Source of the DNA: Alphaproteobacteria bacterium
GTDB taxonomy: Bacteria > Pseudomonadota > Alphaproteobacteria > DSM-16000 > Inquilinaceae
DNA length: 64,000 nucleotides
Direction of reading: 5' to 3'
Assembly: GCA_028281925.1 (NCBI GenBank)
Contig: JANQIX010000008.1
Location: forward strand, 1-64,000
Part shown: positions 13,209-25,756 of the stretch, piece by piece
How the letters are laid out: each line of letters opens with the position of its first letter
Numbering within the stretch: the stretch's first letter is position 1
Program-made: the position numbers and the translations under genes
Notes under the pieces: model-generated
Told to the model about the DNA's origin: nothing
The model's input: the letters and a program-made list of their open reading frames with translations, nothing else
Databases searched by the model: none

Positions 13209-14171
13209 TTAAAGAAGCCTGACGACCTCGTCCAGCTCAGGGCCTTGGCGATCGAGGATGCGTTCGGCCTCCCGTTTCAGGGCGCTGATATTGGCGGCGT
13301 GGGCGGCGTCCAGATCGTCGAGCGCTTCGGTCAAGGCAATGTTGAAGCGGAAATAGCGCTGTCCGCTCTCGCCGGGGCCCGGAAGCAGTTGCAGCAGATG
13401 GTGGTGCACGGCGTCGGCCGCGCCGTCCATGAACACGCCGATCATCGGCACGGCCCAGCCGGCTTTGCCCCAATCTTTGGCCTTCTCATACGGGATAGAC
13501 CGCGTGGTTATGCCCGTGCCGATCGACACGATCACAATGTCGTCCGGCGGCTGCTTCTTCTTTCGCGCCTCGGTGTAGCCGCATAGGGCAGGGTTGTTGG
13601 CAAAGACGCCCCCGTCGATCAGAACGCGCCGTGTCTGCCCATCGACGGTCCGCACGACGGCGGGTTCGAAATAGGTGGGGGCGGCCGATGTCGCCCGCGC
13701 CACGTCCCGCAAGAAATGGTTCCGCTCCGGCGCGGCGGCCTTGCTGCTCTTGAACAGATACGGCTCGTGCTTCTCGATCTCGAACGATGTGACCAGAAGC
13801 TCGGTGAGCACATCGTTCAGTCGGGCGTCGCCTGCGAAATCGCCGACGACCCGTTCAAGATTGTCCGCGCTGTAAAGCTCGTCGAAAACGCCGGCCGGGT
13901 TGGTCAACCCGTCCCAGAACGACCGCTCGAAGATCTCGCCACCATGATCCGTCAAGAGATCGACGAGATCTTGCGCCGACAGCGCGGTTCCGGACCGCTT
14001 GGGGCTTGGGCCCGCGAGCCCCACCGCGATGATCCCGCCGATGGAGGTTCCGGCAATCAAGTCGAAGGCCTGATGGAGGGGCTTGCCGATGCGTCGTTCG
14101 ATTTCGGCGAGGACCACGGCCGGGATCACGCCGCGGATACCGCCGCCGTCGATGGCGAGGATTCTGTACAC
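13209..14171 (-). CDS. patatin-like phospholipase
   Basis: 320 residues from GTG 14171, preceded by AAGGGAGG. All patatin motifs are present: DGGGIRGVIP oxyanion loop near the N-terminus, nucleophile elbow GTSIGG (Gly-x-Ser-x-Gly), and LIDGGVFANNPA carrying the Asp of the Ser-Asp dyad. Expected reaction: release of fatty acids from membrane phospholipids or other acyl lipids. There is no signal peptide, so it acts in the cytoplasm. It is the last gene of the six-gene minus-strand operon that begins with a fatty-acid alpha-dioxygenase-like gene, and could feed it substrate. Patatins also serve as CBASS effectors (CapV), but no cyclic-nucleotide synthase is nearby. Confidence 0.9.
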   Translation of the reverse strand: MYRILAIDGGGIRGVIPAVVLAEIERRIGKPLHQAFDLIAGTSIGGIIAVGLAGPSPKRSGTALSAQDLVDLLTDHGGEIFERSFWDGLTNPAGVFDELYSADNLERVVGDFAGDARLNDVLTELLVTSFEIEKHEPYLFKSSKAAAPERNHFLRDVARATSAAPTYFEPAVVRTVDGQTRRVLIDGGVFANNPALCGYTEARKKKQPPDDIVIVSIGTGITTRSIPYEKAKDWGKAGWAVPMIGVFMDGAADAVHHHLLQLLPGPGESGQRYFRFNIALTEALDDLDAAHAANISALKREAERILDRQGPELDEVVRLL

Positions 14172-14206
14172 GATGGCCTCCCTTCTTCTTGTTGCTGCGC
14201 CGGCCC

Positions 14207-14632
14207 CTAGGGCCGCGTCTGTAGCTCGGCAATCACGAGGCGGCGATAGGTGACGTAGAGCGCGACGGCAAAGATGCCGTCGAACGCGGCCAGCCAGAGG
14301 AAGCCGCCGCCGAGGGTGAGGAAGAGCACCGCCATCCCCCCGCGCCCCAGCACGCCGACTACGTTCGGGATGCGGTTGTGGATCGGATCGAGATAGCCGG
14401 GGACCTGCAGCGCGCTTGCCATCAGTACCATCGCCGCCCAGACGCGTGCCCAGTCGATTGCCGCGTCGGGGTGCTCCAACCCGACCAGGCCCAACAGCGC
14501 CGTCGGCCAGATCAGGGCCACGACCGCGATCAGGCTCTGCAGGGCGAGGTTGAAGCCGTAGAGGCGCCGATGTGTCTTCAGGGCCTTGTCGGCCTCGGCA
14601 CGTGTCCAGCCGATCGAAAGCGAGTCGGTCAT
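14207..14632 (-). CDS. small four-helix membrane protein of the lipid-oxidation operon
   Basis: 141 residues from ATG 14632, which follows GGAAGTGGGGG. Four hydrophobic segments are visible, including LALQSLIAVVALIWPTALLG, VWAAMVLMASALQVPGYL and a C-terminal GGFLWLAAFDGIFAVALYV. There are no heme or metal ligands of a recognised type. The gene lies 19 bp behind the cytochrome c gene and 35 bp ahead of the patatin gene, so it belongs to the same transcript. It may anchor or pass electrons to the complex; that is inference. Family not recognised with certainty. Confidence 0.75.
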   Translation of the reverse strand: MTDSLSIGWTRAEADKALKTHRRLYGFNLALQSLIAVVALIWPTALLGLVGLEHPDAAIDWARVWAAMVLMASALQVPGYLDPIHNRIPNVVGVLGRGGMAVLFLTLGGGFLWLAAFDGIFAVALYVTYRRLVIAELQTRP

Positions 14633-14651
14633 TTCCCCCACTTCCTTCCCA

Positions 14652-16208
14652 TCAGAAACGCAGCAGATAGGCGAGCAGCGCCGCCTTATCCGCCTCGTTC
14701 AAAGACGTTCCGTAGATGTGCCCCTGGTTGCCGTTGCCTGGCAGGGTAGTGTCGAAACAGAAGCCATCGTCGGGACCGGTCTCGCCCGGGTCGCAAGGCG
14801 GGGCTACGAACCCGCCGCGCACAACGTCCAGAACGTCCGGACCGCGAAGGAACGCCCATGGCCTTTCCTCCGGCGGCGCAAGCAAATCGGCGAGTGTCGG
14901 CACCGAACCGTTGTGCAGATAGGGGGCCCGCAGCCAGAGCCCGTCCAGCGGATGGTTGGCGTATCCATCGGTCTTGACGAAGTAGCGGAACCGGTACTCC
15001 GTGTCGGCGAACAGGTCGCTCAGCTGCCGCTCACGGAAGGCGGCGGTGTAGGAGTCCAGGCGTCTGGGGTCCGTGCCGATCGCCCCGATCGGCTCCACCT
15101 GGCCAAGGCGCTCGCCGGTGAATTGGTAGCTGCCGTCCTCGCCCAGGTATCCGTGGCAGGCCGCGCAGTGCTGCATATAGATTTCCCGGCCTGCGGCAGC
15201 TTCGGCATCGTCGGTCGCGATCGGGCTCGGCGGCGGCTCAAGGTCCGACAGCCAGCCGGCCACCCGCTCGATCGCCGCATGTTCGACCGTCGCCGGCGTC
15301 ACGCCGGCGCCGAGCGCGGCCGACAGATTGCGCTCATCCAGCGACGGATTGTTGCCGTCCCAATGCAGCTGCATGCCCTCGCGCGGTCCCTGCAGAAAGA
15401 TCGAAGGGAAGTCCGCCGCCCCGATCGCCTCGGCTTCGGACAGCTGCAGGATCGGCGGTTCCAGACGCGCCACCTTGTAGGGGTTGAAGGTATCGACCCG
15501 CCCCGGCCCCCAGGGCGGCTGCCCGGCCAGTAGCGGTTCCAGGCGCAGCCTCTGGAACAACAGCCCCTCGCGCACCCGCGGCAGCACGATGTGCTGCCAC
15601 ATCAGCCGTTCCAGCATCCCCAGCGACTGGCCGCTTTCCTCAATGGCGGCGAACACGCGTTCGTCGCCCAGCCGCGCGTCGTCTGCCGCCCCCAGCAAGA
15701 AATCGACGAACCCGTGGAGGTCCAGATTGTTGGCCGGCATGCCGGCGACGATCACCAGCTCGGCTTCCGGCTCCGTCCGATAGGTACCGGTATGGCAGAC
15801 GGCGCAGTTGAACCACACCAGATCGACGCCCAAGACGCGGCGCTCAGAGATGCCGATGGGCAGGTCGCGCGGCCACCCATCCTCGGTGCCGTAGAGGAAG
15901 CCGAAGGCCGCATAGTCCGTGCGCCCGCCGAACGCCTCGGGAAACAGGTGCGGCAGTGCGTGCCAGAGCTTCAGCGGCAGGCCGCTGGCTTCCTCCGCAC
16001 CAATCGAGCCATAGAGGAAGTGGTCGGCATCGTCGCCGTAATGCGCCGTCGACTGCCCCGCCAGCCGCAGCCCGGCCGCCGCCAGCACGAGTGTGAGGAT
16101 CACCGAGGCCGCCACCAGCAACACAAGCGCCCCGAAAACGATGCGCCAGCGCCCGCGGCGGCGAGCGAGCTCCGCCTCGACAGCCGTGATGGTCGGAGGC
16201 GCGCTCAC
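14652..16208 (-). CDS. membrane-anchored diheme cytochrome c
   Basis: 518 residues. An N-terminal membrane anchor (IVFGALVLLVAASVILTLVL, about 22-45) is followed by a periplasmic region with two CxxCH heme-c sites, CAVCH near residue 135 and CAACH near 347. The spacing resembles diheme peroxidase/MauG-like cytochromes. The C-terminal part has APYLHNGSVPTLADLL, typical of that group (a methionine-free sixth-ligand region is also common there). Probable role: electron transfer or peroxide chemistry in the periplasm. Its start overlaps the stop of the Old Yellow Enzyme gene by 4 bp (16205-16208), so translation is coupled. Confidence 0.88.
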   Translation of the reverse strand: MSAPPTITAVEAELARRRGRWRIVFGALVLLVAASVILTLVLAAAGLRLAGQSTAHYGDDADHFLYGSIGAEEASGLPLKLWHALPHLFPEAFGGRTDYAAFGFLYGTEDGWPRDLPIGISERRVLGVDLVWFNCAVCHTGTYRTEPEAELVIVAGMPANNLDLHGFVDFLLGAADDARLGDERVFAAIEESGQSLGMLERLMWQHIVLPRVREGLLFQRLRLEPLLAGQPPWGPGRVDTFNPYKVARLEPPILQLSEAEAIGAADFPSIFLQGPREGMQLHWDGNNPSLDERNLSAALGAGVTPATVEHAAIERVAGWLSDLEPPPSPIATDDAEAAAGREIYMQHCAACHGYLGEDGSYQFTGERLGQVEPIGAIGTDPRRLDSYTAAFRERQLSDLFADTEYRFRYFVKTDGYANHPLDGLWLRAPYLHNGSVPTLADLLAPPEERPWAFLRGPDVLDVVRGGFVAPPCDPGETGPDDGFCFDTTLPGNGNQGHIYGTSLNEADKAALLAYLLRF

Positions 16209-17554
16209 GGCGCCGCCTCTTCGGCCGTCGGGATGGCGAGTTCGCTCCGCGTGCGATAGATCGACATCAGCTGATCGATCATCTGCTCAGGGCTGTCGAA
16301 GCGGCTTTCCTCATAGCAGCCCATGGGGTTCTTCGGGGCGTTCAAGAGGCACTTGTTGCAATAGGTGCAGGGTCGCTCGGGCAGGTCTCGCCCGGCCTGC
16401 CACTGCTGCACCAGGTCGTTGTTGGCCACCAGCGAACGCGCGATTGCCACGCCGTCGATGTCGCCGCGCTCAAGCGCGCTGCGCACGAGGCTTGCGGACT
16501 GATAGCCGCCGGTGCTGATCACCGGGATCGTCACGGCCTGTTTGATCGTCCGTGCGTCCTGCAGGCTGATGCCCTCGTTCCCGCGCCCACGCTTCAGGCG
16601 GAACCAGAGCCACCGGAACAGCGGCCTGAGCGCCGGATAGCGGAAGAACAGGAAGTTCCGGAACCCGTGGATGCCGGACGAGATCATGGCGTCGTAGGTG
16701 ACGGCCAGCACCTCCAGCGGCAGGTCGCCTGGCGGATTCAGCGGGTGGGGGAACAGCGAGCCCGTCGAGATATGCAGGGCGTCGGCGCCGGCCGCCTCGC
16801 ACCAGCGTGCGACCTGCACCGTGTCGGCGAGCGTGTTGCCCTTGCCCTCCCAGGGGAGCACGTCGTTGTGGTCGACCGCGCTCAGCTTGACCTGCAGGTG
16901 GTAGTCGCGGCCCACCGCCTCGCGGATCGCGGCGATCACTTCCAACAGGAAGCGCGCGCGGTTGCGCAGGGAGCCGCCGTAGAGATCCTTGCGGTCGTTG
17001 ATGGCAGAGCTCAGGAACTGGGTGAACAGGTAGCCGTTGGCGGCGTGCAGTTCGACCCCGTCCAGCCCGGCCTCGCGCGCCCGCCAGGCGCCACGGGCGA
17101 ACGCCTTGACCAGCTGTCGGATCTCGCCGACCCCCATGGCACGCGTGAGGAAGCCGTGCAGGGTTTCCGGCTGGCTGGTGGCGCTGGGTGTCGGGCGGGC
17201 CTGGTTGTGGATGCCAGGCAGGTCCATCTGCCGCCCGGAATGGCTGAGCTGCAGGATGTACTTCGCGCCATGCGCATGCACGGCCTCCCCCAGCCGCTGC
17301 CACAGCGGGATGAAATCATCCCGGTGGATCGTCGCGTAGTTCGCGATGATCCGCCCCTCCATCGCCACCGGGACGTAAGAGGAAAGGATGGCGCCGACGC
17401 CGCCGGCGGCGAACTTCGTCTCCCAATTGATCCGCGTCTGGGTCAGTGACCCGTCTTCATTGTCGAAGCGGCCGGAGATGTTGGACCGGAAGATGCGGTT
17501 CTTGACCTCCAGGGAGCGGAACTTGAGCGGCGTGATGAGGATGTCGTCGGCCAC
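16205..17554 (-). CDS. NADH:flavin oxidoreductase (Old Yellow Enzyme type) with cysteine cluster
   Basis: 449 residues from GTG 17554, which follows GGGAGGGGGTGAG. It is an FMN TIM-barrel: TPLKFRSLEVKNRIFRSNIS start, QLSHSGRQ, the substrate pair His/Asn in GVELHAANGY, YGGSLRNRARFLLEV, and a phosphate-binding STGGYQSASLV. Near the C-terminus CTYCNKC plus a later GC gives CX2CX2CX10C, the Fe-S pattern of the 2,4-dienoyl-CoA reductase branch, but the FAD/NAD domain of that branch is absent. Typical chemistry is reduction of enones or dienes, including oxidised lipids. It lies 17 bp after the P450-like gene and overlaps the cytochrome c gene by 4 bp. Confidence 0.9.
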   Translation of the reverse strand: MADDILITPLKFRSLEVKNRIFRSNISGRFDNEDGSLTQTRINWETKFAAGGVGAILSSYVPVAMEGRIIANYATIHRDDFIPLWQRLGEAVHAHGAKYILQLSHSGRQMDLPGIHNQARPTPSATSQPETLHGFLTRAMGVGEIRQLVKAFARGAWRAREAGLDGVELHAANGYLFTQFLSSAINDRKDLYGGSLRNRARFLLEVIAAIREAVGRDYHLQVKLSAVDHNDVLPWEGKGNTLADTVQVARWCEAAGADALHISTGSLFPHPLNPPGDLPLEVLAVTYDAMISSGIHGFRNFLFFRYPALRPLFRWLWFRLKRGRGNEGISLQDARTIKQAVTIPVISTGGYQSASLVRSALERGDIDGVAIARSLVANNDLVQQWQAGRDLPERPCTYCNKCLLNAPKNPMGCYEESRFDSPEQMIDQLMSIYRTRSELAIPTAEEAAP

Positions 17555-17571
17555 CGTCTCACCCCCTCCCG

Positions 17572-18459
17572 CTATTGCCAGACCGCCTGTGACCACACAG
17601 CGGCGATCATGGCTGGGACGACACGGTGCGCTGGGCATTCGCTCCAGCCGCCGCGCATGAAGGTGATGCGTGGGTCGAGGCTGCGTTGGCCTGCCTCGCG
17701 AATGGCAAACGTGACCAGCGTCCCGGGCCGGAGCGGGCCGACCAGGCTGTCCGCATGGCCGTCGGCCTGGCGCACGATGGTGCGCGGCCCGACAAGCGTG
17801 CGGGCGATGGCTTCGGCTGTACTGACGCTCGCCCGGTCGTCCGCCTCGCGATAGAGCTTCGCCAGGCCCTCCATCGCATCGACCAGATTGTGCACGGCAA
17901 TCCCGGTGCTGTGCACCGCGGATGGGTCCCCCTTCGCGGCATCCGACAAGGTCCGCTGGGCCCTGTAGATGCTGCCGATGATGACCCTCAGCAGATGCGT
18001 GAGCGGGTTGTTGCTCTCCGCCGCCCGCTGCAGCCGCTTTGCTGCGGCCCATGTCTCGCCCGTGGCCTGATAGTCGGCGTCAAACAGCCGGCCCACAAGC
18101 TGCTGGGTCAGCGGGCCGACCTCGCCACCTTCCCCGCGGACGAAGCCGCTTAGCGCTGCCACCGTTTCCTCGTCCAACAGGCGTTCCGGCTCGGCAGGCG
18201 TCAGCCGGTCCGTCAACGCGGCCTGGGCGGCCGCCCGGTCGGTGTCGTCGCGGCGGAGGATCGTCGGCAGCGGCCGGCGGCCGGTGCTCAGAGTGAAACG
18301 CAGGCGCCCGGTGACGAAACGGTTGAACAGCGGTCCCGCAGGACGCAAGCCCCGATCGAGGGTCGGATGCGGGGCGACGGCCCTGATCGCGTCCGGCGTC
18401 GACACCGAGACAACGTCGATCAGCCAGGGGATGCGGATCCGCCTCGCCACTGCCGTCAC
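17572..18459 (-). CDS. unknown protein with cytochrome-P450-like C-terminal signature
   Basis: 295 residues from GTG 18459, overlapping the stop of the alpha-dioxygenase gene as GTGA. The last 80 residues read like the end of a P450: an EAIAR...R helix (ExxR position), R-x-A before LVGPLRPGTLVTF, then SLDPRITFM and GGWSECPAH, where Gly and Cys align with the FGxGxHxCxG heme-thiolate loop. The protein is much shorter than a 400-residue P450 and the loop is degenerate, so heme binding is not assured. Fungal psi-factor oxygenases fuse a related heme dioxygenase to a P450 domain, which makes this pairing meaningful. Otherwise an unknown lipid-oxidation accessory. Confidence 0.6.
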   Translation of the reverse strand: MTAVARRIRIPWLIDVVSVSTPDAIRAVAPHPTLDRGLRPAGPLFNRFVTGRLRFTLSTGRRPLPTILRRDDTDRAAAQAALTDRLTPAEPERLLDEETVAALSGFVRGEGGEVGPLTQQLVGRLFDADYQATGETWAAAKRLQRAAESNNPLTHLLRVIIGSIYRAQRTLSDAAKGDPSAVHSTGIAVHNLVDAMEGLAKLYREADDRASVSTAEAIARTLVGPRTIVRQADGHADSLVGPLRPGTLVTFAIREAGQRSLDPRITFMRGGWSECPAHRVVPAMIAAVWSQAVWQ

Positions 18460-20297
18460 CTCTCCGCCGTCTTCCAGGGGAAGAAGGGATTACGCGCATC
18501 GGCAAAGGCATCGGCCAGTACCGGGCAGTGACGCCGGACGACCGAGGCGAACCCATTTTCCTGCACCCAGCGGAATCCGGCCTCGGTGTAGATCTCCGGC
18601 CGGAAGTCGTCGGTATAGAACCGGTCGCTCTTCAGCCGCCGCGAGGCCATGACGATGAAGATGCGAAAGGCCGTGTCGGAGAAGCCGAAGCGGTACGGCA
18701 TGCCGCGCTTGGAGCGCGATTCGGCCAGCGTGCCGATCAGCAGGTCGACCTTGTCGACGCTGCCATAGATGTCCTTCAGTTCTTTCTGCCAGTCCTTGTC
18801 GTCGGTGATGTCGGCGAAAGTGTCCGGCGGCTTCATGCCCAGGAGACGGCGACATTCCTTGAACCGGGGCACGCCGCGCTCGCGGTCGCGCAGGATGTCG
18901 ACGGCGGCCAGATCCATGAACACCGATTCGTCGGCGCGCTTGTCGATCTTCCGCAGCGTGTTGGGGAAGTTGTGCAGCACCAGCGCGCCCGGATGGTCGG
19001 TGGCAAGCGAATAGACGACGTCTTCGAACGACGCGTGGTCGTAGATCGACCGCGCGCTCGCGAACGCGGCCTCGGTCAGCGTCCGGCCGAACAGCGCGCT
19101 GTTGTCTTCATGGCTGCGGAACGACAGGTCGTCCGGCAGCAGCGAATGCATGCGATAGATGGCCGTGAATTCCTCGGTCATCGCGTAAGGCACGTCGCTG
19201 TGGTCCTGCGGCGAGCCGGGGATGCCCGAGGTCACCTCGCTGTCGGAAAACCGGCCGAAGGCGTTGATGAACGTTTCGCCCATCAGCCCCCAATAGTTGC
19301 CGCGCATGATCAGGCGGCCCCGCGGCGAGTCCATCAGCGCCGGCGTCCATTCCACGGTGTGGATCTTCGCCATCAGGGCGGCGTTCACCAGGCGCGCCTT
19401 GTGGTACAGCCAGTCGCCGGAGGCCTGGGGGAAGTCGATCTTCAGCCGGTCGACGATGGCATTGTGTTCGCGCGTGAACAGGGTGTGCAGGACGGATAGG
19501 CCGATCCACCAGTTGCCGTTGACGCCGGAGAGCTCAAGGCTCTCGGTCGTTCCGTCGATCGGTAGCAGCCCGCCGTCGGTCAGCCCCAGCTTGCCGTCGT
19601 CAAGAAACGCGGCGGGCTTGCCGTCCGGGCCGGGCCGGCTGCGCACCTGCCGGTTGCGTTCAGGCGTGGAACCATAGATCTGCGAGCCGTCCCACCAATG
19701 GGTTTCGATATTGCGATAGGTGGCCGGCCGGCCTTCGTCTTTCGGATTGGTGTCGTCGTCCGGCTTGGTGCGGGGCACCAGCATGGGCCGCCGCGGCCAG
19801 TCGTCATCGGCGCCAAGCGGGACCTCGAGCATGTTCTCCTTCTTGTTCTTCCCGTGCCCCAGCCAGTCATGCACCATGAACTGGATCCACGCCGCCGCCA
19901 GCAGGTTGAGATGCGGGACAGGCGCGAAGCTCTGGCGCGCAAGCAGGCGCCGCGACACCTCGCGGGGGTTCGGATCCATCAACAGCGGCGGCGACTCGCC
20001 GAACGCGGCCGAGAGCGGCACGTTGCGCCCGAAGCGGGTGTCGGTCTTGCCCATCCAGGGCGTGCCGAGATCGTTGAAACTGCCGTCGATGGTGCGCGCA
20101 CCCTGAATATCGAAATCTTCGGGAACCGAAGGGTTCTCCGGCGCAGTTTCAGTATCAACTAAATTGTTGTTACGCAGATTGACGCGATGGCCAAGGACGA
20201 TCGCAATGCCGGCGATGAACGGCCAATGATGCCAGACACGAAATCCCTCGGTCAGCCGCGCCAGCGTGCCGAGGATCCAATCAGCGAATTGCTTCAC
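18456..20297 (-). CDS. fatty-acid alpha-dioxygenase-like heme protein (animal heme peroxidase/cyclooxygenase superfamily)
   Basis: 613 residues from GTG 20297, preceded by GGGAGGA. Key motifs fit plant-type alpha-dioxygenase: AAWIQFMVHDW with the distal His near residue 140, a WWDGSQIYGS block, TLFTREHNAIV, and EEFTAIYRMHSLLPD near 375-390 holding the catalytic Tyr and proximal heme His in the same order as cyclooxygenase YHWH. Length matches alpha-DOX (about 630). Expected reaction: O2 addition at C-2 of a fatty acid to give a 2-hydroperoxide that decays to a shortened aldehyde. An N-terminal hydrophobic stretch (WPFIAGIAIVLG) may associate with membrane. First gene of the six-gene operon. 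Confidence 0.88.
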   Translation of the reverse strand: MKQFADWILGTLARLTEGFRVWHHWPFIAGIAIVLGHRVNLRNNNLVDTETAPENPSVPEDFDIQGARTIDGSFNDLGTPWMGKTDTRFGRNVPLSAAFGESPPLLMDPNPREVSRRLLARQSFAPVPHLNLLAAAWIQFMVHDWLGHGKNKKENMLEVPLGADDDWPRRPMLVPRTKPDDDTNPKDEGRPATYRNIETHWWDGSQIYGSTPERNRQVRSRPGPDGKPAAFLDDGKLGLTDGGLLPIDGTTESLELSGVNGNWWIGLSVLHTLFTREHNAIVDRLKIDFPQASGDWLYHKARLVNAALMAKIHTVEWTPALMDSPRGRLIMRGNYWGLMGETFINAFGRFSDSEVTSGIPGSPQDHSDVPYAMTEEFTAIYRMHSLLPDDLSFRSHEDNSALFGRTLTEAAFASARSIYDHASFEDVVYSLATDHPGALVLHNFPNTLRKIDKRADESVFMDLAAVDILRDRERGVPRFKECRRLLGMKPPDTFADITDDKDWQKELKDIYGSVDKVDLLIGTLAESRSKRGMPYRFGFSDTAFRIFIVMASRRLKSDRFYTDDFRPEIYTEAGFRWVQENGFASVVRRHCPVLADAFADARNPFFPWKTAER

Positions 20298-20561: not shown

Positions 20562-21242
20562 CTACAGGTGCCGAACGATGATCCTGCCATTGCGTGGCAC
20601 CGTCAGTTCGAAGTGCCTGCGCTGAACGACATCGCGCACCGCAGGCGGCCGGAACGAGACGACGTTGGTGCCTGCCGGATCGCGCACGCTGTCATAGACG
20701 ATGCCCGCGTGCGGCGATGCGCGGACCTGGGCGCCGAAGGCCTGGCCGGCGGCATAGTCGTCGGGCCGGTAGACATCAGGCAGAGTGGCGGAACGGCCGC
20801 GGATGTCGACATGGTCGCCGGCAAGATGCGCCTGATAGGCGCGGTACTGGGAGACGATCTCCGGCTGGCCGGCACGGTGCGCTTCGCGGCGCAAGTGGTG
20901 GGCGACCTCTTTGATCGCGGTTTTTTCGGCCAAGCTGGCATACCAGGCGCCCAGCTGCGCATCGCTGAAGCGAGCGCCGTCGGGCGAGGGGTGCAGGAAG
21001 GCGGCCAGGATCACGCCGGCGTTGCTCCGCCCCAGCACTCGCTGATCCTCGGGCAACCGGTGCAGGCGATGGCGGACCAGCCGATCGTTGGTCCAGCCCT
21101 CCAGCGCCATCACGGCGTCCAGGTCGCCGGCCGAGGCGACGGTGTCGAACGCCTGAATGGTGGGATAGCGACTGGGGATCAGCCGCCACGTTTCAGGGAA
21201 CGGACCGGCTGTCGGCAGTCGGTCGAGGCCGGTCCCGGTCAC
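20562..21242 (-). CDS. RES-domain toxin of a RES/Xre toxin-antitoxin pair
   Basis: 226 residues from GTG 21242, overlapping the antitoxin stop as GTGA. The family-defining Arg, Glu and Ser are seen in TWRLIPSRYP, KTAIKEVAHH and YDSVRDP. RES toxins (MbcT-like) fold like ADP-ribosyl transferases and deplete NAD+ when free of antitoxin. The gene order antitoxin-then-toxin with overlap is standard for this type. It lies downstream of the antitoxin, next to a TIR-STAND gene, in what looks like a defence-type island. Confidence 0.88.
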   Translation of the reverse strand: MTGTGLDRLPTAGPFPETWRLIPSRYPTIQAFDTVASAGDLDAVMALEGWTNDRLVRHRLHRLPEDQRVLGRSNAGVILAAFLHPSPDGARFSDAQLGAWYASLAEKTAIKEVAHHLRREAHRAGQPEIVSQYRAYQAHLAGDHVDIRGRSATLPDVYRPDDYAAGQAFGAQVRASPHAGIVYDSVRDPAGTNVVSFRPPAVRDVVQRRHFELTVPRNGRIIVRHL

Positions 21243-21763
21243 GCGAAGACCAGATCGTCGTCCACGATCGGCGTATGTTCGAAGTTCGCGCCGGCGAGCG
21301 GGGCCGAGGCTTGGCCGCCGTGCCACGCGTCGAGATAGCGCCGCACCAGATAGAGGCCGTCTTGCGTGCCGGAGACGACCAGCGCCAGGGGCGGCTGGCC
21401 ACCAAAGGTCGTACCGTCATTGGGCGCGGTCAGCCACGCCAGCCCCTGACCGTCGCGGACGAAGATCAGCTTCAGCGCCTTGTAGATGCCGAGCACGGCG
21501 GAGATGCGCAGCAGCCCGTCCAGCGGCAGCCGGACGGCGGCCCCCGCCTGGGCCTTCGCCAGCCAGCCATGATAGGTCGACCGTCCGGGCTGGCCCAGGA
21601 CGGCCAGCCGGTCCTTCTCGCTCAGCCCCCATTCATTGGCGATGTTGGCAAAGATCCGCAGCCCCGGACCGCTGAGGCGCATGCGTTCGTCATTGGTTAT
21701 GCTGCGTGGGTCCATATCGGTCGCCGGCGCGAGACTGTGAATGAGGGCTGTCTGCGCGGCCAT
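21239..21763 (-). CDS. MbcA/ParS/Xre-type antitoxin
   Basis: 174 residues from ATG 21763 (ATG 21778 is also in frame). The N-terminal/central part is a helix-turn-helix region (FANIANEWGLSEKDRLAVLG, then RSTYHGWLAKA). The C-terminal part (ALVVSGTQDGLYLVRRYLD) is the toxin-binding DUF2384-like domain. It neutralises the RES toxin encoded directly downstream and should repress its own promoter. The start codon lies beside a strong palindrome (21779-21799), which supports autoregulation. Confidence 0.88.
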   Translation of the reverse strand: MAAQTALIHSLAPATDMDPRSITNDERMRLSGPGLRIFANIANEWGLSEKDRLAVLGQPGRSTYHGWLAKAQAGAAVRLPLDGLLRISAVLGIYKALKLIFVRDGQGLAWLTAPNDGTTFGGQPPLALVVSGTQDGLYLVRRYLDAWHGGQASAPLAGANFEHTPIVDDDLVFA

Positions 21764-21778
21764 GATCCATATGTCCAT

Positions 21779-21799
21779 ATATGGATATAATATCCATAT
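21779..21799. promoter_or_regulatory. 21-bp perfect palindrome, probable antitoxin operator
   Basis: ATATGGATAT-A-ATATCCATAT is a perfect 10+1+10 inverted repeat. Further CCATAT half-sites occur at 21767-21772 and 21775-21780, so four related half-sites are packed into 33 bp. It covers the likely -10 region on the minus strand (TATTAT, 21792 to 21787) and abuts the antitoxin start. A TATAAT on the plus strand (21786-21791) means rightward transcription toward the STAND gene could be controlled as well. Confidence 0.7.
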
Positions 21800-21892
21800 C
21801 CGGACATTGCCAGCCAAATACTCTTCCCTTGACCAGCGGTGGCCCGAGAGGCGGCCAAACGTGCCAGGCGTTGGATAGGTGCGACTCCAGAC

Positions 21893-21996
21893 GGCAGGAG
21901 ATGCCCGTCTCGCGCGGGCATGACGGTCTTGATTGTTGTTTCTCCGGCAACTCAACCAGCTCGTCGTCCTCGCGAAGGCGAGGACCTCCCTGGCAC
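21893..21996. repeat. intergenic repeat element, copy A
   Basis: About 100 bp shared with 28078-28174. Both begin GGCAGGAGATGCCCG and end ACCTCCCTGGCA. Two hairpins are visible: an ATGCCCG/CGGGCAT stem (21901-21921), and GTCCTCGC-GAAG-GCGAGGAC, an 8-bp stem with a GAAG tetraloop. The middle is less conserved. It lies between the antitoxin and the TIR-STAND gene. Confidence 0.75.
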
Positions 21997-22129
21997 GGAG
22001 CAATGGCCGCTCAACCTGCGCCTCTCCCTCCGCTTCAGGGGTTGACCGCCGCCGATGACCGAACGATCGCAACATCTGTCGCCACTTCGGGTAGTTTTGG
22101 TTGGAGACCGATCGCATTAGGCTTCATCG

Positions 22130-25100
22130 ATGGCCGGAGAGCAGCCCCGCATCTTCATCTCGTATTCCACCCATGACGGGGCGGAGCGCGCCGCCGAACT
22201 GCGCCGTGAGCTTGAGGCCAAGGGGTTCGCCGTCTGGCAGGATCTGGTGGCGCTGCAGGGCAGCGCCGACTGGTGGACGCAGATCGAAGCGGTGCTGCGG
22301 TCCAAGGCACTGCAGCACTTCATCCTGATCGTCACGCCGAAGGCCCTGGCGAGCCGCCATGTGCGGGCCGAGATCCGGCTGGCGCGGCAAGAGGGCAAGA
22401 CGGTTTCGCCCGTGCGCGGGCCCGACATCGAAAGCCTGGACGACATGCCCCGCTGGCTGGGCAACGTCTATGACCTGAACGTTCCGGAACGCCGCACGAC
22501 CCTGATCCGCGTGCTGGAGCTGCCGAGCAGTGCCGCGCGCGTGCCCATGATGGCGCCGGAACCGCCGGAGGATTTCGTCCTCCGGCCGCGGGAGTTCGAC
22601 GCGCTGAAGCAGCAATTGCTGGACGCCAAGGACGATGCCGTGGCGATCACCGCGGCCCTGCGCGGCGCTGGCGGCTACGGCAAGACGACCCTGGCCCAGG
22701 CGCTGGCCCACGACCCGGACATCCAGGACGCCTATTTCGACGGCGTGCTGTGGGTGGAATTGGGCGAACAGGGCGGCGGCCGCGTGCTGGCGGAGATCGC
22801 CGATCTGGTCAAACTGCTGACCGGCGAAGCCCGCGAGATGTCCACGAACGACGGTGCCCGCACGGCGCTGGCTGAGGCGCTCGGCGACCGCCGCATCCTG
22901 CTGGTGGTGGACGACGTCTGGCAGCGCCCGCACCTGGAGCCGTTCCTGTTTGGCGGCCGTAACACAACGCGGCTGGTCACCACGCGGTTCGACCCGGTGC
23001 TGCCGGACAAGGCGGCGCGACAGCCGGTCGATGCCATGCAGGATGCCGAGGCGCTTGCGCTGCTAGGCCGGAACCTGCCGCCCGATCAGGTGGCCGGTCA
23101 GACGATAGCGCTCAGCCGGATGGCGACCCGGCTCGGCGAGTGGGCGCAGCTTCTCAAACTCGCCAACGGCTTTCTCAGAGACTGCGTCGATTTCGGCGCG
23201 ACGCTCGAAATCGCCATCGCCGATCTTTCGGCGGGTCTCGATGAACATGGCTTGGTCGCGCTCGATGCGGCAGAAGACGTCAGCTACGAGGATCGGCGGA
23301 CGTCCATCGCCAAGGTGATCGACACGTCGCTTGGGTTGCTGAACGACCAGGAGCGTGCCCGCTTCGGTGAGTTGGGCATCTTCCCTGAAGACGTGGACAT
23401 TCCGACCGGTATCGCGGCGCGGCTTTGGGCGGAAACCGGGCCGCTGAACGCGTTCCAGACACGGAAGCTGCTGATCAGGCTGTCCGGCCTCTCTCTTCTG
23501 TTCTCCCTGGACCTTGGCCGGCAAACGCTGCGTCTGCACGACACGACGCGCCATTTCCTGCGATACCGGGCGGGCGAGGAGGGGCTGGCTGCTCAGAACC
23601 AAGCGCTGGTCCGCGCCATCGGCGGCATCAACGGTGCCAAGGGCATGCCGACGGCGGAAGCGGAGTATGTCTACCGCCATCTGCCACAGCACTTGGCCGA
23701 CGCGCACGACCGTCAGGCGCTGGACGCGTTGCTGCTCGACCCCGGCTGGCTGAAGGCCAAGTTGGCGGCCAGCGGCAGCCCGCAGTCTATTGTCGGCGAC
23801 TACACACAGCACCGCCATGGACGGTTGCAGGACCTGATCGGCCGGACGCTAGGCGTGACCATCGGCATCTGCGCGCGCGATCCGCGTCAACTGTTGCCAC
23901 AGATCCTCGCCCGACTGATGGCGGTCACCGATGCCGACACCGAGGGTTACCGTGAGGCGGCGCGCAGACTGGTCGATCGCCCAGCGCTGTTAACGGAGCG
24001 GGCCAGCCTGAGACCCCCGGGGGCGGAAATTGCCCGCCTGGAGGGGCATACCGACTGGGTCACGGCGCTGGCGGTGCTGCCGGACGGCCGCCTCGCCTCG
24101 GGGTCCTCCGACACCACTGTGCGGCTGTGGGACCCGGCGACGGGCGCCGAAACCACCTGCCTGGAGGGTCACACCGACTGGGTCACGGCGCTGGCGGTGC
24201 TGCCGGACGGGCACCTCGCCTCGGGATCCAACGACGGGACAGTGCGGCTGTGGAACCCGGCGACGGGCGCGGAAATCGCCCGCCTGGAAGGTCACGCCGG
24301 CGCGGTGAGGGCACTGGCGGTGCTGCAAGACGGCCGCCTCGCCTCGGGGTCTTTCGACACCACGGTGCGACTGTGGGACCCGGCGACGGGCGCGGAAACC
24401 GCCCGCCTGAAGGGCCACACCAGGCGAATGCGGGCGCTGGCAGTGCTGCAAGACGGCCGCCTCGCCTCGGGGGCCGACGACAAGACGGTGCGGTTGTGGG
24501 ACCCGGCGACGGGGGCGGAAATCGCCCGCCTGGGCGGCCATACCAGTCGAGTGAGGGCACTGGCGGTGCTTCAAGACGGCAGCCTCGCCTCGGGGTCAGA
24601 TGATAGGACGGTGCGGCTGTGGGACCCTGCGACGGGTGCGGAAACCACCCGGCTGGAGGGGCACATCGGCGCGGTCACGGCGCTGGCGGTGCTGCCGGAC
24701 GGCCGCCTCGCCTCGGGGTCTTCCGATACCACGACGCGGCTTTGGGACCCTGCGACGGGCACGGGAACCGCCCGCCTAGAGAGCCATACCGGCGCGATCA
24801 CGGCGCTGGCGGTGCTGCCGGACGGCCGCCTTGCCTCGGGGTCTTCGGACACCACGGCGCGGCTGTGGGACCCGGTGACGGGCACGGGAACCGCCCACCT
24901 GGAGGGCCACACCGACGAGGTCACGGCGCTGAGGGTGCTGCCAGACGGCCGCCTTGCCTCGGGGTCCAATGACACCACGGTGCGGCTGTGGGACCCGGCG
25001 ACGGGGGCGGAAACCGCCCGCCTGGAGGGGCACGCCGACTGGGTCAGGGCGCTGGCGGTGCTGGCCGACGGCCGCCTCGCCTCGGGCTCCGACGACTGGA

Positions 25101-25756
25101 CGATGCGGCTCTGGGACCCGACGACGGGTGCGGAAACCGCCCGCCTGGAGGGCCACACCGGCTGGTTCACGGCGCTGGCGGTGCTGCCGGACGGCCGCCT
25201 CGCCTCGGGGGGCAACGATGGGACGGTACGGCTGTGGGATCCGGCGACGGGCGCGAAAACCGCCCGCCTGAGGGGCCACACCGGCTGGTTCACGACGCTG
25301 GCGGTGCTGCCGGACGGCCGCCTCGCCTCGGGGGGCAACGATGGGACTGTGCGGCTGTGGGACTCGGCGACGGGGGCGCAAGCCACCCGGCTGGAGGGCC
25401 ACACCGGCGCGGTCACGGCGCTGGCGGTGCTGGCGGACGGCCGCCTCGCCTCGGGCTCCGCTGACAACACGGTGCGGCTGTGGAACCCGGCGACGGGGGC
25501 GGAAACCGCCCGCCTGGAGGGGCACGCCGACTGGGTCAGGGCGCTGGCGGTGCTGGCCGACGGTCGCCTTGTCTCGGGATCGGATGACAACACTGTGCGG
25601 CTGTGGGATCCGGCGACGGGGATCGAGCTTTGTCGCCTCGAATTGGACAGGCCCATCCACTGCCTTGCGGTTCCGCCTCCCTACACGCGCTACGTCTGCC
25701 GCGTGGTCGCCGGCGATGAGGACGGCCGCCTGCACTGGCTTGAAATCTTGGATTGA
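22130..25756 (+). CDS. TIR-NB-ARC-WD40 STAND protein (apoptosome/NLR-like)
   Basis: 1208 residues from ATG 22130. A TIR domain (RIFISYSTHDGAERAAEL, residues 6-130) is followed by an NB-ARC ATPase with Walker A GAGGYGKTT near 180 and Walker B ILLVVDDVW near 256, a winged-helix region (about 430-510), and WD40 repeats from 638 to the end. Thirteen repeats of exactly 41 residues plus a degenerate last blade make 14, enough for two seven-bladed propellers as in APAF-1-type sensors. TIR domains of such proteins commonly hydrolyse NAD+ or signal on target sensing, so an antiphage or regulated-death role is plausible. The trigger is unknown. The gene neighbours a RES/Xre module. Confidence 0.92.
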   Translation: MAGEQPRIFISYSTHDGAERAAELRRELEAKGFAVWQDLVALQGSADWWTQIEAVLRSKALQHFILIVTPKALASRHVRAEIRLARQEGKTVSPVRGPDIESLDDMPRWLGNVYDLNVPERRTTLIRVLELPSSAARVPMMAPEPPEDFVLRPREFDALKQQLLDAKDDAVAITAALRGAGGYGKTTLAQALAHDPDIQDAYFDGVLWVELGEQGGGRVLAEIADLVKLLTGEAREMSTNDGARTALAEALGDRRILLVVDDVWQRPHLEPFLFGGRNTTRLVTTRFDPVLPDKAARQPVDAMQDAEALALLGRNLPPDQVAGQTIALSRMATRLGEWAQLLKLANGFLRDCVDFGATLEIAIADLSAGLDEHGLVALDAAEDVSYEDRRTSIAKVIDTSLGLLNDQERARFGELGIFPEDVDIPTGIAARLWAETGPLNAFQTRKLLIRLSGLSLLFSLDLGRQTLRLHDTTRHFLRYRAGEEGLAAQNQALVRAIGGINGAKGMPTAEAEYVYRHLPQHLADAHDRQALDALLLDPGWLKAKLAASGSPQSIVGDYTQHRHGRLQDLIGRTLGVTIGICARDPRQLLPQILARLMAVTDADTEGYREAARRLVDRPALLTERASLRPPGAEIARLEGHTDWVTALAVLPDGRLASGSSDTTVRLWDPATGAETTCLEGHTDWVTALAVLPDGHLASGSNDGTVRLWNPATGAEIARLEGHAGAVRALAVLQDGRLASGSFDTTVRLWDPATGAETARLKGHTRRMRALAVLQDGRLASGADDKTVRLWDPATGAEIARLGGHTSRVRALAVLQDGSLASGSDDRTVRLWDPATGAETTRLEGHIGAVTALAVLPDGRLASGSSDTTTRLWDPATGTGTARLESHTGAITALAVLPDGRLASGSSDTTARLWDPVTGTGTAHLEGHTDEVTALRVLPDGRLASGSNDTTVRLWDPATGAETARLEGHADWVRALAVLADGRLASGSDDWTMRLWDPTTGAETARLEGHTGWFTALAVLPDGRLASGGNDGTVRLWDPATGAKTARLRGHTGWFTTLAVLPDGRLASGGNDGTVRLWDSATGAQATRLEGHTGAVTALAVLADGRLASGSADNTVRLWNPATGAETARLEGHADWVRALAVLADGRLVSGSDDNTVRLWDPATGIELCRLELDRPIHCLAVPPPYTRYVCRVVAGDEDGRLHWLEILD
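24041..25639 (+). repeat. thirteen 123-bp tandem repeats encoding WD40 blades
   Basis: Period exactly 123 bp, 13 copies, high nucleotide identity (ALAVLPDGRLASGS and TVRLWDPATGAE recur almost unchanged). Variation concentrates in the residues just after GH(T/A) (DWV, GAV, RRM, SRV, DEV, GWF) and before the RLW strand. These positions are surface-exposed in WD propellers. The pattern suggests recent expansion or gene conversion. Confidence 0.95.

Follow-up and report, generated by a model that had tools for sequence, protein, structure and literature searches.

A conserved gene unit pairs a proteobacterial fatty-acid alpha-dioxygenase with a predicted miniature P450-fold protein

Introduction

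Fatty-acid alpha-dioxygenases (alpha-DOX) are, in the excerpts of PMC8720084 used here, plant enzymes together with newly assayed cyanobacterial members, and the proteobacterial ones appear there as sequences on a tree. Here we describe an operon headed by such a proteobacterial gene. It lies on the minus strand of a 64,000-nucleotide stretch of DNA (positions 1 to 64,000 of contig JANQIX010000008.1, assembly GCA_028281925.1; hereafter the window) from an Alphaproteobacteria bacterium of the family Inquilinaceae. The alpha-DOX gene is followed by genes for a miniature P450-fold protein (mini-P450), an Old Yellow Enzyme (OYE)-type flavoprotein, a membrane-anchored diheme cytochrome c, a small membrane protein and a patatin-like phospholipase. 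The first five of these form a unit that recurs in other proteobacteria.

The closest described systems join an oxygenase to a second heme enzyme. Fungal fusions combine a haem-peroxidase-family dioxygenase with a P450 fold lacking the O2-activation motif, and according to excerpts of PMC13049297 these P450 partners, as well as thromboxane synthase and prostacyclin synthase, are self-sufficient, i.e., they work without an electron chain. In other systems the hydroperoxide is handled by a catalase-related hydroperoxide lyase or allene oxide synthase, as in coral fusions (PMC5617202, in part) and in the Nostoc 10S-DOX with its catalase-related lyase (PMC13049297, in part). The locus described here shares with the fungal fusions the type of dioxygenase and a predicted P450 fold without the O2-activation motif. 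However, the two proteins are encoded by separate genes, the dioxygenase is an alpha-DOX and not a linoleate dioxygenase, and the P450 has only about 300 residues, no ExxR motif and no match to the Pfam P450 model. The fold also sets it apart from the catalase-related partners, although catalase-like partners of alpha-DOX do occur in other lineages.

We suggest that the operon is a dedicated fatty-acid alpha-oxidation (oxylipin) cassette, in which the mini-P450 would use the hydroperoxide made by alpha-DOX directly; we give this reading a probability of roughly 55%. A search of the open-access literature, with subscription papers and preprints outside it, found no description of the operon or of the mini-P450. 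The conserved alpha-DOX cassette is real and, within the literature searched, undescribed, while in outline it resembles the known dioxygenase-P450 pairs. Its most surprising part is the miniature P450-fold partner.

Results and discussion

Identity of the lead enzyme

The lead protein contains an animal haem peroxidase domain (E 1.7e-104), and its best solved relatives are plant fatty-acid alpha-oxidases. The match to the rice enzyme (4kvj) covers residues 20-609 of 613 with 342 bits (E 3.9e-101), compared with 109 bits for lactoperoxidase and 45 bits for COX-1. Residues H143, H313, T318, Y381, H384 and R554 align with rice H157, H311, T316, Y379, H382 and R559, i.e., the catalytic tyrosine, the heme histidine pair and the equivalents of His311 and Arg559 are all present, and these positions are invariant across seven bacterial sequences, the one from the window included. 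His311 and Arg559 are also named in a reference title. Judged by sequence, the lead gene encodes a genuine fatty-acid alpha-dioxygenase, in keeping with the first-pass annotation, which had placed such an enzyme at the head of the operon. It shares the full-length homology and the aligned catalytic residues with the plant and cyanobacterial enzymes (CalDOX and LepDOX in the excerpts of PMC8720084). However, it differs from them in its setting, as it heads a conserved unit of five genes that also encodes a P450-fold protein, a flavoenzyme and a diheme cytochrome.

A miniature P450-fold partner

Sequence comparisons do not recognise the mini-P450. None of the 26 family members matches the Pfam P450 model, PDB searches with the single sequence and with a profile found no P450, and an HMM-HMM comparison with one ordinary P450 gave no match. 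The AlphaFold2 model built from 24 sequences has a pLDDT of 92.8 and a pTM of 0.90. Foldseek listed 50 matches to it in the PDB (best E 8.1e-6, TM 0.47-0.64 on the query), all of which we take to be P450s, by title or by recognition of the entry. A second structure comparison (Z 19.8, rmsd 3.2 over 268 of the 295 residues) also has only P450s among the 50 matches listed. The predicted structure thus indicates a P450 fold despite the absence of a Pfam match, and it bears out the P450 call that had been made from a motif. The CHAD domain was rejected as an alternative assignment, as its one match scores 18.9 bits against a cut-off of 25.6 and occurs in a single member of the 26.

If helix L is aligned without gaps, Cys275 falls on the ligand cysteines of P450 BM3 (Cys400), CYP2C9, CYP1B1, GcoA and CYP175A1. 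Invariant in all 24 aligned sequences are Arg36, Arg47, His183, Pro225, Arg230, Trp272, Cys275, Pro276 and Ala277. Within the aligned segments, neither the ExxR motif of helix K nor the acid-alcohol motif of the I-helix (AG-x-D/E-T/S) is present in any of the 24; the I-helix mostly reads H-A-T-G-I-A-V-H-N, with His190 and Asn191 each kept in 21. These motif losses and the linkage to alpha-DOX suggest that the mini-P450 may be self-sufficient as well.

Other roles can be considered. The mini-P450 could use H2O2 or O2 to hydroxylate the fatty acid, or the aldehyde derived from alpha-DOX, rather than isomerise a hydroperoxide. This would agree with the P450 fold and with the fatty-acid decarboxylase structures (8w1k, 8w1j) among the 50 Foldseek matches listed. 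However, it is unlikely given the absence of both motifs in all 24 sequences and the fact that homology clustering, the only method used for this, recognised no ferredoxin or reductase among the conserved neighbours. Slightly more doubtful still is a role as a subunit, free of heme or without catalysis, that keeps alpha-DOX stable or in place. The small size, the loss of ExxR and the strict adjacency to alpha-DOX are as such a subunit would have them, but Cys275, Trp272, His183, Arg47 and Arg230 are unchanged in all 24 sequences, as expected of a heme site that has been kept. We prefer a mini-P450 that acts on the alpha-DOX hydroperoxide.

Conservation of the five-gene unit

Loci were collected by a scan with the alpha-DOX alignment, and the best 80 of at least 564 confirmed candidates were kept. 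As the best-scoring ones were retained, this sample leans towards relatives of the present alpha-DOX; it includes a contig of a genus-mate (L026, the same as L123) and seven Halomonadaceae loci. Neighbours were called by phmmer matches of >35 bits to our own reference proteins within 9 kb. In 21 of the 80 loci, the genes for alpha-DOX, mini-P450, OYE, cytochrome and small membrane protein are arranged in this order on one strand, a recurrence which argues that the arrangement is not due to chance. Five of the six genes that the first-pass annotation had grouped therefore cluster elsewhere too. Two loci (L041, L048) show variant arrangements and one (L032) has a different flavoenzyme, a FAD enzyme, in the place of OYE; altogether the mini-P450 is found in 24 of the 80. 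The FAD-enzyme version also occurs on a Qingshengfaniella plasmid. Carriers of the cassette include Labrys, Caulobacter, Sphingomonas, Roseibium, Neoroseomonas, Mesorhizobium, Halomonas, Ectothiorhodospira and a Burkholderiales metagenome-assembled genome. When the remaining genes near the cassette were clustered, no further conserved neighbour of clear meaning emerged.

In the alpha-DOX tree of 86 rows, the 26 rows with a mini-P450 all belong to a single clade of 27 (SH-aLRT 100); this is a quick tree with SH-aLRT as its only support measure and a midpoint root, from which L025 was dropped because of its short match. The pairwise distances of the five proteins in the 21 loci are correlated at 0.86-0.95, with none of 1000 permutations as high, for open reading frames (ORFs) with untrimmed starts and with shared ancestry still included in the values.

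Genomes drawn from the phylum tell the same story of linkage. The mini-P450 profile matches 4 of 398, the window's own genome included, and alpha-DOX is found at E up to 1e-60 in 9 of 398. In all four genomes carrying a mini-P450 it comes directly after alpha-DOX; in the three other genomes, 11, 58 and 15 bases separate the ends of the two matches, and the genes in the window overlap by 4 bp. In a first set of 96 relatives, this alpha-DOX was present only in its own genome and the genus-mate, the remaining eight matches being partial and at most 41% identical.

Two alternating flavoenzymes

The OYE active site (His-x2-Asn-Gly-Tyr) and the cluster C-x2-C-x2-C-x10-C are present in all 25 aligned sequences, and the cysteines may bind an Fe-S cluster. 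The best solved relative by sequence score is 2,4-dienoyl-CoA reductase (E 1.8e-38), with OPR3 at E 4.6e-31. The likeness to plant oxophytodienoate reductases that had been proposed earlier thus holds at the superfamily level, and 2,4-dienoyl-CoA reductase has the higher sequence score. The window protein shares with that class of OYEs the Cys cluster after the barrel; however, it lacks the C-terminal reductase part (449 versus 671 residues).

Among the 26 mini-P450 loci, OYE is present in 24 and an unrelated FAD_binding_4/ALO enzyme in two, and in none do both occur within 9 kb. A third case of the FAD enzyme is G468. At L053 and L114 the FAD enzyme follows an alpha-DOX without mini-P450, and OYE is also found near alpha-DOX at L074, L092 and L100.

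The diheme cytochrome and the small membrane protein

The RoxA rubber oxygenase and the Pseudomonas PA2077/PA2078 oleate-diol synthase enzymes have two CXXCH hemes, a PY(F/L)HNGSVP motif and a tryptophan at W302 of RoxA; the residues and the motif used for comparison come from excerpts of PMC4496055. The cytochrome in the window has one hydrophobic N-terminal segment, CXXCH at 135 and 348, and the MauG-type PYxHNGSV motif of the RoxA/PA2077 kind. The tryptophan is kept in 17 of the 18 aligned cytochromes. However, none of the 18 has a phenylalanine at the position of RoxA F317, where 17 have alanine and one aspartate, and the window protein is further distinguished by its membrane anchor and its partnership with alpha-DOX. 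The residues at the F317 place rule out a firm label as a RoxA-type oxygenase. By its sequence features the cytochrome is a relative of the RoxA/PA2077 enzymes and at most a candidate oxygenase. The anchor and the two hemes had been recognised in the first-pass annotation, which saw in the cytochrome a possible link to the respiratory chain; we place it as a diheme protein of the RoxA/PA2077 type rather than a plain carrier. Searching the own genome and 14 control genomes for the family of RoxA-like cytochromes, with a view to PA2077 itself, led nowhere. In seven Halomonadaceae loci (L042-L047 and L049), another diheme cytochrome gene of this type is located upstream of alpha-DOX on the opposite strand.

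The model of the small membrane protein has four long helices, and a hydropathy scan marks two regions only. Foldseek found no match to a known fold (best E 2.0), and the Pfam search of its 23 family members gave only three weak matches, each in one member.

The cytochrome also passes the NCBIfam model for di-heme cytochrome c peroxidases (161 against a cut-off of 150). This fits the idea that the operon serves disposal rather than synthesis. In this view alpha-DOX would shorten free fatty acids that are in excess, and hydroperoxides would simply be cleared by the mini-P450 and the peroxidase-like cytochrome, without a defined signal or product. There would then be two peroxide-handling heme partners for one peroxide producer, and no regulator or exporter is found among the conserved neighbours. 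However, a flavoenzyme is kept in all 26 mini-P450 loci and would not be needed for simple peroxide removal. We regard disposal as possible but rather improbable, and favour a dedicated alpha-oxidation cassette.

The patatin lies outside the conserved unit

The first-pass annotation had correctly placed a patatin gene in the operon, but the gene is not part of the conserved unit. In 79 of the 80 best loci, no match to three patatin references was found near alpha-DOX, which rules it out as a core gene; within the operon it recurs only in the genus-mate contig, with DNA 90% identical. The best solved match is plant patatin-17. The protein also matches PADLOC phospholipase effectors (E 1.6e-73), lies near the CapV-type phospholipases by model score and narrowly passes the NCBIfam CBASS phospholipase model (202.9 against a cut-off of 200 bits). 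From these matches, and from the RES/Xre pair and the TIR-WD40 protein encoded upstream (Table 1), the operon could be read as an anti-phage or CBASS-like defence module centred on the patatin. We reject this as very improbable. No match to the patatin references lies near alpha-DOX in 79 of the 80 loci, none of the five core proteins matches a PADLOC model, and the genome has no SMODS nucleotidyltransferase (PF18144), the one cyclase family searched. Further, the DNA similarity to the genus-mate contig stops at about 20402, short of the RES/Xre genes. The conserved unit is better seen as a fatty-acid cassette, to which the patatin is joined in this genus.

Other partners of alpha-DOX in other lineages

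A distant catalase-like protein is the neighbour of alpha-DOX in Mycobacteriaceae and Nocardia, placed downstream in 12 loci and divergently in five. Two further catalase entries in our table, L050 and L072, lie kilobases from alpha-DOX and are not labelled catalase in the tree, where L023 is unlabelled despite a catalase-like N-terminus found later. In four mycobacterial loci (L070, L076, L082, L090) the catalase-like protein, 56-69% identical to the separate one, is fused to the C-terminus of alpha-DOX, while in Rhizobium phaseoli and Phyllobacterium the order is opposite, with a catalase-like domain at the N-terminus. The Rhizobium fusion scores 28.1 with Pfam Catalase; a PDB search with the mycobacterial protein gave at best E 0.034.

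A GMC oxidoreductase is found at three alpha-DOX loci (L021, L054, L067). In Sorangium cellulosum (L084, 9815-13449), a lipoxygenase-like ORF comes after alpha-DOX (Pfam E 4.1e-9 for the ORF), so two kinds of fatty-acid oxygenase stand side by side. On a Streptomyces plasmid, alpha-DOX is accompanied by an ordinary P450, a hydrolase, a GlcD-like dehydrogenase and an enzyme of the benzoylformate-decarboxylase type (634 bits, cut-off 493), together the likely parts of an alpha-oxidation. Separately, a 948-aa ORF in Iningainema tapete (L102, 9902-12748) has an alpha-DOX part that ends near residue 628, and the remaining ~320 residues have no Pfam match.

Organisation of the locus

The host assembly comprises 6,326,713 bases in 122 contigs. 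The six genes are co-directional at the positions and spacings reported in the first pass, see Table 1, and the spacings are -4, 17, -4, 19 and 35 bp in transcription order. The 17-bp gap presupposes the GTG at 17554 as the OYE start, and the 19-bp gap presupposes the ATG at 14632 for the small membrane protein, with the GTG at 14641 giving 10 bp. The sequence GGAGG stands immediately 5' of the GTG start of alpha-DOX. A scan for promoters and terminators found nothing clearly above shuffled sequences. From the gene spacing alone, the six genes are probably transcribed together.

Table 1. Genes of the operon and its surroundings (window positions)
Feature	Position	Strand	Basis or remark
Fatty-acid alpha-dioxygenase (alpha-DOX), 613 aa	18456..20297	-	Full-length match to rice alpha-oxidase; catalytic-aligned residues invariant in 7 bacterial sequences
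Miniature P450-fold protein (mini-P450), 295 aa, presumed heme ligand Cys275	17572..18459	-	Predicted structure, alignment
OYE-type flavoprotein, 449 aa, C-x2-C-x2-C-x10-C cluster	16205..17554	-	Homology, motif
Membrane-anchored diheme cytochrome c, RoxA/PA2077 kind, 518 aa	14652..16208	-	Homology, motifs, hydropathy
Small membrane protein, predicted four-helix bundle, up to 144 aa	14207..14641	-	Start GTG 14641 or ATG 14632
Patatin-like phospholipase, 320 aa	13209..14171	-	Homology; operon member in this genus only
RES-domain protein and Xre/MbcA/ParS-type antitoxin	20562-22117	-	Just upstream of the operon; likely RES-Xre toxin-antitoxin pair
1208-aa protein	22130-25756	+	TIR-like N-terminus, WD40-type repeats as read from sequence
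Two adjoining proteins, 342 and 363 aa	8820-11213	-	Pentapeptide-repeat look by sequence

A proposed pathway

We infer the pathway as a whole as follows. In the first step, which homology and the intact residues strongly support, alpha-DOX would add O2 at C2 of a free fatty acid to give a 2-hydroperoxy fatty acid; in this genus, the patatin may free the fatty acid from phospholipid. The mini-P450, binding heme through Cys275, would then rearrange or cleave the 2-hydroperoxide directly, with neither O2 activation nor an electron partner. Other peroxides are used in this way by CYP74 of plants, by thromboxane synthase and by the P450s paired with fungal dioxygenases. Thirdly, a flavoenzyme, either the Cys-cluster OYE or in some loci the unrelated FAD enzyme, would oxidise or reduce the product; this step is suggested by the alternation of the two. 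The periplasm-facing cytochrome and the small membrane protein could form a redox or peroxide-handling module, the weakest step of the scheme. The favoured outcome is a chain-shortening alpha-oxidation via a 2-hydroxy or 2-oxo acid.

Several observations weigh against this proposal. The cytochrome and the cytosolic flavoenzyme would sit on opposite sides of the membrane. The linkage between mini-P450 and alpha-DOX in the phylum draw rests on four genomes, that of the window included, and in a draw from the class the mini-P450 profile matches only the own genome (1 of 385). That profile was built from sequences linked to alpha-DOX, so distant unlinked relatives could be missed. In the mini-P450 clade itself, the alpha-DOX of Methylobacterium soli (L037) has no mini-P450, and 29 of the 80 best loci, four of them catalase fusions, lack any partner matching a reference protein, which indicates that alpha-DOX often works without such partners. 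As for the other lineages, the mycobacterial catalase-like protein stays below the Pfam Catalase cut-off (21.8 against 25), and the GlcD-like dehydrogenase near the Streptomyces alpha-DOX reaches 394 bits, below its cut-off of 568.

Implications

The five-gene unit places proteobacterial alpha-DOX in a context, with a candidate for the second enzyme and a product that can be searched for. As a tentative extension, with in our judgement somewhat less than an even chance of being right, the mini-P450s could represent a novel class of stand-alone hydroperoxide isomerases or lyases with a P450 fold and ~300 residues, which P450 sequence models miss and which act only on the 2-hydroperoxy acids of alpha-DOX. 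Together with the Cys-cluster flavoenzyme and the membrane diheme module, they would make a previously unknown bacterial oxylipin or run an alpha-oxidation that has spread horizontally among proteobacteria. The mini-P450 has neither ExxR nor the O2-activation motif, and it would illustrate how small a part of a P450 suffices when a peroxide is the oxidant.

The alternation of P450-fold and catalase-like proteins beside alpha-DOX recalls the P450 and catalase-related hydroperoxide enzymes found elsewhere, and it suggests that dioxygenases became coupled to a second heme enzyme on more than one occasion. That various proteobacteria carry the unit points to a route, so far undescribed, by which bacteria make oxidised fatty acids or dispose of them.

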